Source: SAR116 cluster bacterium MED-G04
Lineage (GTDB): Bacteria; Pseudomonadota; Alphaproteobacteria; Puniceispirillales; UBA1172
Assembly: GCA_002457135.1 (NCBI GenBank)
Contig: NTKX01000002.1
Span: forward strand, 1-60,140
Length of the DNA: 60,140 nucleotides
Direction of reading: 5' to 3'
Shown here: positions 14,745 to 51,593 of the stretch, in pieces
Numbering within the stretch: position 1 is the first letter of the stretch
Layout: each line of letters begins with the position of its first letter
Position numbers and translations under genes: made by a program
Notes under the pieces: model-generated
Told to the model about the DNA's origin: nothing
Database searches by the model: none
Seen by the model: the letters and a program-made list of their open reading frames with translations, nothing else

Positions 14745-14831
14745 GCGAGTGTGGCGGAACCGGTAGACGCAGTGGACTCAAAATCCACCGATGGCAACAT
14801 CTTGAGAGTTCGAGTCTCTCCACTCGCACCA
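14745..14831 (+). tRNA. tRNA-Leu (anticodon CAA)
   Basis: The acceptor arm GCGAGTG (14745-14751) pairs perfectly with CACTCGC (14821-14827), followed by discriminator A and an encoded CCA (14829-14831). The anticodon stem GTGGA/TCCAC encloses the loop CTCAAAA, giving anticodon CAA, which reads UUG. The T loop GTTCGAGTC and a long variable arm typical of class II Leu tRNAs are present. Length is 87 nt. Confidence 0.96.
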
Positions 14832-18022: not shown

Positions 18023-18212
18023 GGTTTCTACCTCTGATCTGGAATAAATACGGGTGATCTGGAATAAATAAACGGGGTGGATGATTCTAGCGATGACTTG
18101 CCCTATCCTGTCGTCAACAAAAGCCGAATGCAATATCGGATTGACCAGCGACCGGGCAGAACAGGTCGTTCAATCCGTCACCGAAACCCGCGTCCATGGG
18201 GAAAACAGCACT

Positions 18213-19052
18213 TTGCCTCAAACCGTGACACGATTTGCCCCAAGCCCGTCAGGATGGCTCCATCTCGGGCATATCCATTCCGTTCTTGAGGCACGGCGGG
18301 CAGCGGATGACGATGGCGGGCTGATGCGACTCAGGATTGAGGATATCGACGGGCCGCGATGCCGCCCTGAATATCATGATGGTATTCTCGATGATCTCAC
18401 TTACATGGGGATCAAATGGGATGGCCCGGTGATGGTGCAGTCCGAGCGCATGGCCGCATACGCCGCCGCGCTCGAAACCCTCAAGGCCGATGATCTCGTC
18501 TATCCGTGCTTTCTTTCCCGGCGGGAGCTGGACAGGCTGCTCTCAGCCCCGCATCTGCCGCCAATTACCCATCCCGCCAATACCGACCAGTTGATCGACA
18601 GTGACCTTGCCACCGAACGGCTGGAACAGGGGCAGGAGCCAGCGTGGCGTTTGCGGATGGAGGCGATCCGCCCCCGGCTCAAGGGCCTTGAATACCGGGA
18701 TTGGCTGAACGGCCCGAAAGCCATTGACCTCGATGCTATCGGTGATGAAGTCATCGCCCGCAAGGATATTGCCACCAGCTACCATCTGTCGGTGGTGGTT
18801 GATGATGCGGCCCAGGGCATCACCCTCATCACCCGCGGGGCTGATCTGGAGGCATCGACCCCGCTGCACCGGGTATTGCAGGTGCTGCTCAATCTGCCTG
18901 AGACCACCTGGAGGCACCATCAACTGGTGCTGGACAGCACTGGGAAGCGGCTGGCGAAACGCCATATGCCGCTGACCATCAGGGATATGCGTGAGGACGG
19001 GATGGAACCATCGGCCATTCTTTCAGCCCTGGAAAAAAGCCCGAAAGCCTAG
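18213..19052 (+). CDS. gluQ: Glutamyl-Q tRNA(Asp) synthetase
   Basis: GluQ-RS attaches glutamate to queuosine-34 of tRNA-Asp. It resembles the GluRS catalytic core but lacks the anticodon-binding domain. Motifs seen are RFAPSPSGWLHLGH (the HIGH element as HLGH), LRIEDIDGPRC, and a degenerate KMSKS element KRLAKRH. The usual start codon is unclear. An ATG frame opens at 18081, but those 44 residues look non-coding. TTG at 18213 follows a GGGGAAAA ribosome binding site and gives a normal 279-residue protein, and GTG 18225 is another option. Confidence 0.85.
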   Translation: MPQTVTRFAPSPSGWLHLGHIHSVLEARRAADDDGGLMRLRIEDIDGPRCRPEYHDGILDDLTYMGIKWDGPVMVQSERMAAYAAALETLKADDLVYPCFLSRRELDRLLSAPHLPPITHPANTDQLIDSDLATERLEQGQEPAWRLRMEAIRPRLKGLEYRDWLNGPKAIDLDAIGDEVIARKDIATSYHLSVVVDDAAQGITLITRGADLEASTPLHRVLQVLLNLPETTWRHHQLVLDSTGKRLAKRHMPLTIRDMREDGMEPSAILSALEKSPKA

Positions 19053-19134
19053 GCATTGGCACAAAATGCGATCCCGGGGAGGGATTGCGTCACTCTGCCA
19101 CATGAATCAAATTATAAAAAATAGGTCAGTCTTG

Positions 19135-19163
19135 TTGACTTAGCTGGTGTATCGGACCATATC
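19135..19163 (+). promoter_or_regulatory. Candidate sigma-70 promoter of the small RNA
   Basis: A -35 element TTGACT (19135-19140) is followed after 17 bp by CATATC (19158-19163). An overlapping TATCAA begins 2 bp later. The predicted start falls at about 19170, exactly where the first RNA hairpin begins. Confidence 0.5.
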
Positions 19164-19169
19164 AATCTT

Positions 19170-19229
19170 ACGCGCTTACTGGCGCGTTTCCTCCCTAAAC
19201 TCGGCCGCGCTTGACGCGGCCTTTTTTTT
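19170..19229 (+). ncRNA. Candidate small regulatory RNA with exposed CCUCCC
   Basis: About 60 nt form a compact RNA. A 5' hairpin (ACGCGC/GCGCGT, 6-nt loop, 19170-19187) is followed by a single-stranded linker TTCCTCCCTAAACT and then a perfect 7-bp GC hairpin with eight T residues (19203-19229). The CCTCCC (19190-19195) is complementary to a Shine-Dalgarno core, so the RNA could pair with ribosome binding sites. The architecture resembles trans-acting alphaproteobacterial sRNAs with anti-SD loops (the mmgR/suhB or CcsR type). I cannot assign it to an Rfam family without a search. It has its own promoter and no ORF. Confidence 0.55.
19203..19229 (+). terminator. Rho-independent terminator
   Basis: GGCCGCG (19203-19209), loop CTTGA and CGCGGCC (19215-19221) form a perfect 7-bp GC stem followed by eight T residues. 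It ends the candidate small RNA and would also stop any read-through from gluQ before moaA. Confidence 0.9.
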
Positions 19230-19275
19230 GCCTGGAGCGATTTGCTGAGGTTATGGTGTTACATTGCCGGGTGAC

Positions 19276-19305
19276 TTGACGTGGCAATGCCTAGGTTCCT
19301 ATAAT
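19276..19305 (+). promoter_or_regulatory. Strong sigma-70 promoter for moaA
   Basis: TTGACG (19276-19281), an 18-bp spacer and a perfect TATAAT (19300-19305) lie 43 bp before the moaA start. This is the closest match to a consensus promoter that I found in the window. Confidence 0.7.
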
Positions 19306-19348: not shown

Positions 19349-20356
19349 ATGCAACAAACAAATCCTATTCTGGACCCATTCGGTCGCCCGATCACCTACC
19401 TGAGGGTATCCGTCACCGACCGATGCGATTTTCGCTGCGTTTACTGCATGGCAGAGGAAATGACCTTTCTGCCCAAGGCTGATCTGTTGACGCTGGAAGA
19501 ACTGGAAGTCATCTGCCGCCGCTTCATGGAAGTCGGCACGCGCAAGATCAGGCTGACCGGCGGGGAGCCGCTGGTCCGGCGGAACATCATGCACCTCATT
19601 GGCAACCTGGGTGATGAAGTCGGGCGCGGCAACCTTGAGGAAATCACCATCACCACCAATGGCAGCCAGCTGGCCAAGATGGCCGATGATCTCTATCGCG
19701 CCGGGGTGCGGCGGATCAACGTTTCCATTGATACCCTCGATACCGACAAATTCCGTGAGATTACCCGCTGGGGTGACCTCGGCAAGGTGCTTGACGGGCT
19801 GGAAGCCGCCAAGTCGGCCGGGTTGAAGGTCAAGATCAACGCTGTCGCCATCAAAGGGTTCAATGATGAAGAACTAGCAGAGATGGTGGCATGGTGCGGC
19901 CGTGAGGGCCACGATATGACCGTCATCGAAATTATGCCCATGGGCGATATCGGCAATGAAAACAGGTTGAGCCAGTACATGCCGGTCTCCCTGGTACGGA
20001 GCAATCTGTCACGGCGCTTTACCCTCACCGACCTCGACTATTCCAGTGGCGGGCCAGCGCGTTACGTCCGGGTTGAGGAAACAGGCCGAAAGCTGGGCTT
20101 CATCACGCCATTGACGCATAACTTCTGCGAAAGCTGCAATCGCGTCAGGATCACCTGCACCGGCATGCTGTATATGTGCCTCGGCCAGGATGACAGCGCT
20201 GATCTGCGGGCTGCCTTGCGTGATACCGGGCAGGACGGGCTGGATGCCGCGATTGTTGAGGCTATTGGCCGTAAGCCCAAGGGCCATGATTTCATCATCG
20301 ACCGCCGCAACAGCGGCCCGGCGGTGGAACGCCACATGAGCGTGACAGGCGGTTAA
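19349..20356 (+). CDS. moaA: GTP 3',8-cyclase (molybdenum cofactor biosynthesis protein A)
   Basis: MoaA is the radical-SAM enzyme that converts GTP to 3',8-cyclo-GTP, the first step of molybdopterin synthesis. The radical-SAM cluster is CDFRCVYC (Cys26, Cys30, Cys33). The second, substrate-binding [4Fe-4S] cluster uses Cys260, Cys263 and Cys277. The chain ends in the double glycine required for activity (MSVTGG). At 335 residues it is full length. It stands alone behind its own promoter; other moa genes are not in the window. Confidence 0.96.
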
Positions 20357-41115: not shown

Positions 41116-42195
41116 TTACGCCGCCCCGGCGATCATCCCCCCGGCGATCATCTCCCCGCCAAGGCTGGAGGCAATCGCCGCCATATCGGTCTGTTTCAGC
41201 CCGATCAGCACCAGCCTGCCCTCATCATCCTTGAGCGTGCCGCCGAAATAACTGTCAACCCGTGCGCCGACAGCCTGAACCGTCAGGGGCAGGGCCTTGC
41301 CGCGAATGGCGAGAAACCCCTTGGCGCGGAGCAGGCCATGCTCGGCCACCGTCGCCGTCAGGTTCCGGATAAACGCTTCATGATCATCCAGCATCGGCAG
41401 GCGCAGAACAACCGAATGGAAGGCATCATGCCCGTGATCATCATCATGATCGTCATCATGATGATGATGGTGATGGTCGAAATGCTCACTGCGGGCGAAG
41501 GCTTCATCTTCAAGCCCGAGGCCGAAAATCGCCTTGAGGGGGGCAGTATCACCCCTTGTGATCATCACCGGCGTGGTGCCATCGGTGAGGGCGTTCAGTC
41601 TGCCCGTCACGCGCTCACCCGCCGCGCCGTCAATCAGGTCGCCTTTGGAGACGATGAGGATATTGGCGGCGGCAACCTGATCGCGGAACAGCTCATCCAC
41701 CGGGGTTTCGTGATCGAGTTCAGGGTCAGCCTGACGCTGGGCCTCCAGTGCATTGAGATCAGCGGCCACCATGCCATCGGCAAGCGCGGCACCATCCACC
41801 ACCGTGACCACGCCATCCAGCATGACGCGCTGGCGGATATCAGGCCAGGCGAAAGCCTGAACCAACGGCTGCGGCAGGGCCAGTCCCGATGTTTCAATAA
41901 TGATGTGATCAGGGGCAGGCACCTGTTCCAGCAGCTTTTGCATGGAGGGCAGGAAGTCATCCGCCACCGTGCAGCAGATACAGCCATTGGCCAGTTCGAT
42001 GATATCATCGGCGGAACAGTTTTCCACGCCGCAGGATGCCAGCACTTCACCATCAACACCGACATCACCAAACTCATTGACGATGAGGGCAAGACGGCGG
42101 CCATCGGCCTGTTCAATCAGTCGCCGGATCAGCGTGGTCTTGCCAGCACCAAGAAAACCGGTGATCACGGTTGCCGGAATACGCATTGCCGCCAT
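41116..42195 (-). CDS. cobW: CobW-type COG0523 GTPase (cobalt-handling)
   Basis: CobW-type GTPases are thought to deliver cobalt for the CobN chelatase. The P-loop is GFLGAGKTT (13-21). The metal-binding CxCC motif is GCICC (Cys72, Cys74, Cys75), preceded by NEFGDVGVDGE. A His/Asp-rich run (about 238-257) lies between the G domain and the C-terminal CobW_C domain and probably binds metal. Length is 359 residues. A GAGGGGGG ribosome binding site precedes the ATG at 42195; an internal Met at residue 4 is possible. The 94-bp gap to hupE holds a strong hairpin. Confidence 0.95.
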   Translation of the reverse strand: MAAMRIPATVITGFLGAGKTTLIRRLIEQADGRRLALIVNEFGDVGVDGEVLASCGVENCSADDIIELANGCICCTVADDFLPSMQKLLEQVPAPDHIIIETSGLALPQPLVQAFAWPDIRQRVMLDGVVTVVDGAALADGMVAADLNALEAQRQADPELDHETPVDELFRDQVAAANILIVSKGDLIDGAAGERVTGRLNALTDGTTPVMITRGDTAPLKAIFGLGLEDEAFARSEHFDHHHHHHDDDHDDDHGHDAFHSVVLRLPMLDDHEAFIRNLTATVAEHGLLRAKGFLAIRGKALPLTVQAVGARVDSYFGGTLKDDEGRLVLIGLKQTDMAAIASSLGGEMIAGGMIAGAA

Positions 42196-42919: not shown

Positions 42920-43009
42920 CTACCCCTCCGGTAAAGGCTGGGTATACCACGGGCTGAATTCACCATTAAATTCAACACCGCTTCATGGCACACCCCGGCC
43001 ATCAGCTTA

Positions 43010-43198
43010 CTTCCGTAGGGGCAGGTCTCCTGGCTCATGGCGTTGCGGCTGACCCCGCCTTCCCGGCCTTGGGGCCAGTGGCATATGGGGCGGCCTGCCA
43101 AATGACAGTCGCGGGGGCGGCTATGGAATAGGGCAGCTTTGATGCATCACCCTCACCATATTCCCTATTAAGGTGCTGCGCTTGGCGCAAGCACCACC
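43010..43198 (-). promoter_or_regulatory. Cobalamin riboswitch
   Basis: On the minus strand the B12-box AGCCAGGAGACCTGCC is at 43035-43020, preceded by GCCACTGG and CCGGGAAGG elements, with the 5' GGTGGTGCTTG and AATAGGGAATATGGTG elements near 43198-43150. This is the standard order of cobalamin aptamer motifs. It lies 90 nt upstream of hupE, and a small ATGGC/GCCAT hairpin follows in the expression platform. It should repress hupE-cobW-cobN-cobO-cobQ when adenosylcobalamin is plentiful. A TTGACA that overlaps the cobC stop (43239-43234) may be a -35 element, but no matching -10 is evident. Confidence 0.95.
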
Positions 43199-43235
43199 CT
43201 TACACCCGAACAGTCCCACAAGCGCGGTTTTAATG

Positions 43236-51305: not shown

Positions 51306-51593
51306 CTACCAGCGTTTGGTTTTCAAGTTTTGGACATGAACGTGGTCGCCCTTACCGGCGGATGCGGTGATCCGGCCTATGTCCTGACCGTATTTCATCA
51401 CGGTGTCGCCTGCACTGAAATCCACCAGCGCAACCTTGTGACCGATGGGAACATCGTGGTTGACCACCATGGTGAAATCGGAATTATCCTCGGTTACAAC
51501 GCACAGCATTTCGGTACCGGCTTTCAGGTTTTCAATAACGACAACGCCGACATTGTCACCGTTGTGATGGACAAGAAGATGCGGTTCTGCCAT
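51306..51593 (-). CDS. suyA: Sulfolactate sulfo-lyase small subunit (SAF domain)
   Basis: This 95-residue protein is a stand-alone SAF domain. The sequence has the pattern of a UxaA N-terminal domain: HHNGDNVGVVVIENLKAG, then HDVPIGHKVALVD and GQDIGRITA, closing with HVHVQNLKTKRW. It forms the small subunit with SuyB. It is the first gene of the operon, with a GGGAGGAAA ribosome binding site at 51608-51600. Confidence 0.83.
   Translation of the reverse strand: MAEPHLLVHHNGDNVGVVVIENLKAGTEMLCVVTEDNSDFTMVVNHDVPIGHKVALVDFSAGDTVMKYGQDIGRITASAGKGDHVHVQNLKTKRW

Follow-up and report, generated by a model that had tools for sequence, protein, structure and literature searches.

A probable αR8 (mmgR/suhB) small RNA linked to gluQRS in Puniceispirillales, with a nearly invariant anti-Shine-Dalgarno 10-mer

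The window analysed here is a stretch of 60,140 nucleotides of contig NTKX01000002.1 from SAR116 cluster bacterium MED-G04. Between gluQRS and moaA, both identified by profile matches, lies a compact series of signals on the same strand: a promoter-like pair, a 5′ hairpin, an unpaired linker, a terminator hairpin of GC pairs and a run of eight T residues, all of which can be read in the sequence (Table 1). The original prediction had placed an independent small RNA (sRNA) of about 60 nt between gluQ and moaA. The two neighbours and the anatomy agree with this, and the predicted transcript measures 60 nt when its start is set 7 nt past the −10 hexamer and its end at the T8 tract. The 5′ hairpin is closed by the first U of the 10-mer UUUCCUCCCU.

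Table 1. Positions of the sRNA, its signals, its neighbours and its best candidate target in the window.
Feature	Position	Strand	Basis or remark
gluQRS, conserved upstream neighbour	18081..19052	+	NCBIfam NF004315, 289.4 bits (cut-off 250)
TAGGTCA box, putative regulator site	19122..19128	+	6 nt upstream of −35
−35 hexamer TTGACT	19135..19140	+	direct reading
−10 hexamer CATATC, spacer 17	19158..19163	+	direct reading
Predicted sRNA transcript, ~60 nt, αR8/mmgR (suhB) family	19170..19229	+	Rfam RF00519
5′ hairpin, 7 bp	19170..19187	+	fold prediction
10-mer seed UUUCCUCCCU, anti-Shine-Dalgarno	19187..19196	+	direct sequence reading
Unpaired linker	19188..19202	+	fold prediction
Intrinsic terminator, 7 GC pairs, loop 5, then T8	stem 19203..19221, T8 19222..19229	+	fold and terminator scan
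moaA, downstream neighbour	19349..20356	+	TIGR02666, 353.6 bits (cut-off 284)
Best candidate target in the window (predicted): ribosome binding site AGGGAGGAAA	51599..51608	-	5 nt before ATG

The 100 nt that include the sRNA fold with −30 kcal/mol, against a mean of −22.2 for shuffled sequences, and none of 200 shuffles was as low. In the predicted fold the mean unpaired probability of the 10-mer is 0.91 and that of its CCUCCC is 1.0, in keeping with the original view of this motif as a single-stranded anti-Shine-Dalgarno segment. The Rfam model RF00519 (suhB/mmgR), which had been suggested as one to try, covers positions 19165–19236; its score of 45.3 bits exceeds the gathering threshold of 41, with an E of 4e-6 over the entire window. 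In the assembly of the same genome, a 1.56 Mb draft that is 76.6% complete, the match has an E of 2.5e-8 and the sole other match an E of 3.4. The proposed likeness to known alphaproteobacterial sRNAs extends to identity of the 10-mer with the published αR8 seed (PMC12559287). The window therefore combines a gathering-level score with a single-stranded 10-mer, a hairpin directly upstream and a Rho-independent terminator directly downstream, as characterises αR8 sRNAs, and the host appears to be an alphaproteobacterium outside Rickettsiales. The latter assignment is based on MoaA: among the best 80 matches listed, nearly all are alphaproteobacterial by title, one being Ca. Puniceispirillum and six SAR116.

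As described in PMC12559287, which is also the source of the particulars that follow, αR8 sRNAs have a terminator and carry, behind a weak hairpin, the 10-mer UUUCCUCCCU as an internal single-stranded stretch. SisA–SisD of Caulobacter crescentus have in common with the window the 10-mer, the preceding hairpin, the Rho-independent terminator and the anti-Shine-Dalgarno signature. Activity has been demonstrated for SisA, whereas the window copy is known from its sequence; likewise sisA adjoins an FGase gene, whereas the window copy follows gluQRS. For one SisA target, pairing of the 10-mer upstream of the start codon was confirmed by compensatory mutations, and lack of Hfq greatly weakened the effects that SisA and its sponge CrfA have on each other. 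Before SisA, MmgR of Sinorhizobium meliloti was the sole characterised αR8 sRNA. MmgR belongs to the same Rfam family, suhB (RF00519), as the window sRNA; it is Hfq-dependent and carries the anti-Shine-Dalgarno motif, and a promoter and a terminator flank the conserved domain (PMC7143759, PMC1273637). MmgR is 77 nt long with three predicted stem-loops, whereas the window sRNA has about 60 nt and two stems. The mmgR gene of S. meliloti has NtrC as activator and AniA as repressor (PMC7143759), whereas the candidate regulator site of the window sRNA is the TAGGTCA box. An anti-Shine-Dalgarno pyrimidine motif is also found in SmelA075 and SmelA099 of S. meliloti, with CCUCCUCCC loops; according to PMC3927594 it occupies three or four hairpin loops in these RNAs, whereas in the window it forms the linker between two stems.

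Conservation was followed in the genome itself and 60 relatives (61 genomes, families f1–f4), with gluQRS as an anchor that is independent of the sRNA. An orthologue was found in 38 of the 61 genomes (37 with E < 1e-50, and that of G031 in two pieces). In 37 of these 38, the own genome included, the exact 10-mer and a terminator-like hairpin lie just downstream; the figure is made up of 29 of 30 loci fetched by gluQRS alone and eight genomes read by coordinates beside sRNA hits. In the same 29 of 30 loci TTTCCTCCCT lies 55–234 nt past the in-frame gluQRS stop called by script, the true stop of G003 apparently lying further upstream. The exception is G004, in which gluQRS abuts moaA and the entire element, 10-mer and terminator, is missing. 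One script counted the terminator in 28 of the 30 loci and a looser one added G029; in every one of the 37 copies a hairpin with a T-rich tail comes after the 10-mer, the T tract being broken by a C in G029 and G041. The combination of 10-mer and T tract was found in 36 of the 39 genomes of families f1–f3, and G010 has neither this pattern nor a gluQRS orthologue. The Rfam cut-off was passed in only 18 of the 61 genomes, the own one included. In G003 (locus L116, also L012) several near-identical tandem terminator hairpins with T tracts follow the sRNA terminator 3′ of gluQRS; within the 500 nt analysed at L116, five terminator-like sites were counted.

The original prediction would be contradicted by loss of CCUCCC from copies that keep the terminator, and it had suggested looking for covarying hairpins in relatives. 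No such loss was found among the 37 gluQRS-linked copies with a terminator-like hairpin, and both stems covary in their alignment. RNAalifold returns the terminator as the sole consensus helix, with nine pairs, eight of which carry compensatory changes. In the 5′ hairpin, whose pairs were added by hand from one sequence to an alignment that is not structure-aware, all eight pairs are changed on both sides and 71% of the cells are paired. Covariation over the whole structure is 0.496 against a shuffled mean of 0.273, a value reached by none of 500 shuffles, and slid versions give at most 0.195. Because the stems covary while the 10-mer stays unchanged, the pattern of decay named beforehand does not apply. 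The mean unpaired probability of the 10-mer exceeds 0.8 in 33 of the 37 copies (it is mostly paired in G033), and in 29 the sequence upstream of it folds more than one standard deviation better than shuffles. The five AT-rich f2 copies are not among these 29, and no 5′ hairpin is predicted in them; four have a small unrelated stem, and G021 has none.

By the consensus of E. coli, CATATC is a weak −10 hexamer, and a generic sigma-70 scan did not list the TTGACT-17-CATATC pair. The putative sRNA promoter is believable because the pattern TTGAC-17-CATATA/C recurs in relatives. A script requiring TTGAC and four or more matches out of six in the −10 picked out 32 of the 37 copies, 26 with the pair well placed and six with it misplaced (G005, G012, G015, G018, G021 and G024); G001 and G005 have TTGAC-17-CATTAC at the expected place. 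The f2 copies, viewed by eye, may use other promoters. The TAGGTCA box, or a variant such as TAGGGCA in G002, is present in 17 of the 37 gluQRS-linked copies. In the ten f1 genomes searched, TAGGTCA-N4-8-TTGAC occurs 12 times, nine of them at the sRNA, against ten occurrences of a reversed control pattern. The three occurrences elsewhere look coding by eye, and are no more than chance would give, since the reversed pattern occurs ten times. The gluQRS stop codon read in G008 and G011 is the TAG of this box, which may account for some of the box's conservation in these two genomes.

The neighbourhood differs from that described for the family. FGase is the usual neighbour of αR8 in single-copy species (PMC12559287), and no specific neighbours are reported for the suhB element in PMC1273637. 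The window sRNA does not adjoin FGase; gluQRS and moaA stand there instead. Among 30 Rfam-found loci in the order, the gluQRS cluster lies upstream in 27 and moaA downstream in 10, the downstream neighbour often being another gene. For comparison outside the order, 289 genomes were sampled across the class and the 30 αR8 loci with the highest scores were taken, a set biased by score. The exact 10-mer is present in all 30, gluQRS lies within about 1.5 kb in none, and FGase makes up 12 of the 59 flanking ORFs, which agrees with the published account (PMC12559287). Within this score-biased sample, linkage to gluQRS seems to be specific to Puniceispirillales.

Other readings of the element were weighed against these data. 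From its end to the start codon of moaA, which is on the same strand, there are 119 nt, a spacing that would suit a 5′ leader or attenuator of moaA, for example a cofactor-sensing element. We consider this very improbable: moaA is adjacent in only 10 of the 30 loci, against 27 with a gluQRS-related gene, and it has a promoter-like pair of its own after the sRNA terminator (TTGACG-18-TATAAT at 19276–19305, from the scan). Moreover, the 10-mer with a T run, or gluQRS, was found at none of 80 moaA loci listed from named genomes, a set that may lack the records nearest to the window and that offers over 500 nt of upstream sequence in 77 cases; among the Rfam matches here there is no molybdenum cofactor riboswitch. 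It is improbable, if somewhat less so, that the element is nothing but the terminator-bearing 3′ end of the gluQRS mRNA, possibly after processing, and has no separate promoter. In that case one would expect what is in fact seen directly upstream, namely gluQRS on the same strand with no other plus-strand terminator between according to the scan, and four relatives have sibling copies elsewhere that directly follow stop codons. However, 26 of the 37 copies have TTGAC-17-CATATA/C at the expected distance, and a mere terminator has no need of an invariant 10-mer.

The layout of hairpin, CUCCCU linker and terminator is also that of SorX (RF02784) and SorY (RF02651), and other alphaproteobacterial anti-Shine-Dalgarno families, of the CcsR or αr14 type, have a similar arrangement. 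The window scores 24.2 of 46.6 bits with the SorX model and 18.0 of 111 with the SorY model, so that neither gathering score is reached. With scores this far below the cut-offs, and with the exact αR8 10-mer in place, membership of one of these families is the least credible of the readings considered.

The αR8 assignment is supported computationally by the family match, the anatomy, the covariation, the invariant 10-mer and the presence of an hfq gene in the genome. The element is thus very probably a gluQRS-linked αR8 (mmgR/suhB) sRNA, predicted to block translation through Hfq-aided pairing of the 10-mer at ribosome binding sites. In the mechanism we propose, a housekeeping-type promoter, perhaps controlled by a regulator that binds TAGGTCA, would drive transcription of some 60 nt up to the sRNA's own terminator. 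Together with the 5′ hairpin, the terminator stem would keep UUUCCUCCCU single-stranded, and Hfq would help it to pair with purine-rich ribosome binding sites (AGGGAGGAAA and near forms). Translation would thereby be blocked, perhaps at many sites before nutrient uptake genes; repression by such pairing is suggested by homology with Caulobacter SisA. The family itself has already been described, and its concept is unchanged by the window sRNA. The present data add to it a locus behind gluQRS, almost complete conservation, the TAGGTCA box and an apparent joint absence with hfq; among the open-access literature matches listed there was no report of an αR8 linkage to gluQRS, of the box, or of a joint absence of sRNA, gluQRS and hfq.

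Matches to hfq were found in 38 of the 39 genomes of the sRNA-bearing families f1–f3. Of these 37 are over the cut-off and that of G053 is a fragment below it; the incomplete G012 has no match. In family f4 hfq was found in none of 22 genomes. The best gluQRS hits there are 31–37% identical and lie mostly in frames of about 450 aa (G038 has no hit), and gluQRS is seemingly missing, since such hits fit the length of glutamyl-tRNA synthetase. The 10-mer and T pattern gave one hit in f4, in G052, which was read as chance, and the RF00519 search gave weak matches in three f4 genomes (E 0.08–0.2). The sRNA, gluQRS and hfq thus seem to be jointly missing from this low-GC family, and one event may account for the lack of both sRNA and hfq. 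The GC content of the sampled loci is 0.327 in f4 and 0.517 in f1. Base composition alone does not explain the absence, since f2, which is just as AT-rich, has the sRNA and gluQRS in all five of its genomes and hfq in four of them.

The best candidate target in the window precedes a 95-aa gene that starts at 51593 (minus strand). It is followed by a galactarate/altronate dehydratase-like gene (GD_AH domains) and, further on, by a gene of the malate/L-lactate dehydrogenase family. Of 168 mechanical ORF starts in the window, this one has the strongest predicted duplex, at −17.2 kcal/mol (the runner-up reaches −14.6), and its site is the only AGGGAGGAAA-N2-10-ATG in the own genome assembly. Seed complements are not enriched in that genome: with at most one mismatch there are 10 sites, one of which is the sRNA, against 19 for the reversed pattern. 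The other nine comprise two before ATG (51593 in the window, and L179) and one before TTG, the others lying in open frames or unassigned sequence; nothing resembling the sponge CrfA was noticed among them.

Across the 61 genomes, AGGGAGGAAA-N2-10-ATG gave 56 rows against 12 for the reversed pattern; 51 of the 56 were read, 46 of these from f1–f3. An open ORF of at least 90 aa follows 31 of these 46 sites, and at most 14 match solute-binding-protein families (family counts summed, with overlap between families unchecked), in addition to permeases. The control AAGGAGGAAA, which has 8 nt in common with the seed complement, precedes an open ORF of at least 90 aa at 36 of 54 f1–f3 sites. The kinds of genes are similar, with transporters about as frequent as after AGGGAGGAAA, so the seed complement has no specificity over this control. 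For a second control, AAGGAGGB (31 genomes), 28 loci were read among the matches listed. Twelve ORFs of 90 aa or more are among them, including one ABC ATPase and no solute-binding protein; the difference, 14/31 for the seed against 0/12 (Fisher p 0.004), is weakened by repeated orthologues in the seed set and by the small size of the AAGGAGGB set. Sites of the seed and of AAGGAGGAAA number 41 and 54 in f1–f3 and 5 and 33 in f4 (p 0.001), a comparison between families that is confounded by GC content. This count leaves out nine antisense rows of sRNA-like copies (G047 being a weak case), one duplicate and four control duplicates. By eye, two of the five f4 seed sites precede DctP-like genes; as f4 apparently lacks the sRNA, this speaks against the sRNA as the cause of such sites. 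Judged from the genes behind the sites, a plausible target class is that of nutrient-uptake genes. A third control, AAGGAGGTGA, was dropped, as it gave mostly short ORFs.

As a separate observation, AAGGAGGTGATC lies a few nt before an ORF of 24–29 codons beginning MSS in 15 of 30 loci (L314–L316, L322, L324–L330, L332, L333, L335 and L338), perhaps a conserved small peptide or leader.

A possible though rather unlikely history would join these strands. In it, the αR8 sRNA of Puniceispirillales settled behind gluQRS, not FGase, and came to act as a fixed, Hfq-aided brake on translation of the substrate-binding proteins that serve nutrient transporters, itself controlled through TAGGTCA by a regulator particular to the order. 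In some relatives sibling 3′-end RNAs would have been added directly behind the stop codons of other genes, and the low-GC family would then have lost hfq, gluQRS and the sRNA together. The locus presents a nearly invariant αR8 copy at a fixed position in a probably abundant marine group and suggests testable targets, and the relatives with and without hfq offer a natural contrast.

Copies away from gluQRS were also noted. In four relatives (L263, G055:C6; L247, G043:C22; L252, G041:C13; L265, G021:C21) the 10-mer and a T-tailed hairpin follow, at a distance of 0–6 nt, the stop of an open frame that is 61 or more codons long, and these are candidate 3′-end-derived αR8-like RNAs. Three further non-gluQRS copies (L026, G041:C1; L264, G043:C2; L266, G011:C75) have the terminator GGACAGCC in common, and no TTGAC promoter was seen in the 75 nt upstream of them. 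Elsewhere in the window, Rfam reports a tRNA gene at 14745–14828 (plus strand). A cobalamin riboswitch (115.9 bits) lies at 43003–43216 (minus strand), about 800 nt upstream of a same-strand CobW-family gene at 41119–42195.
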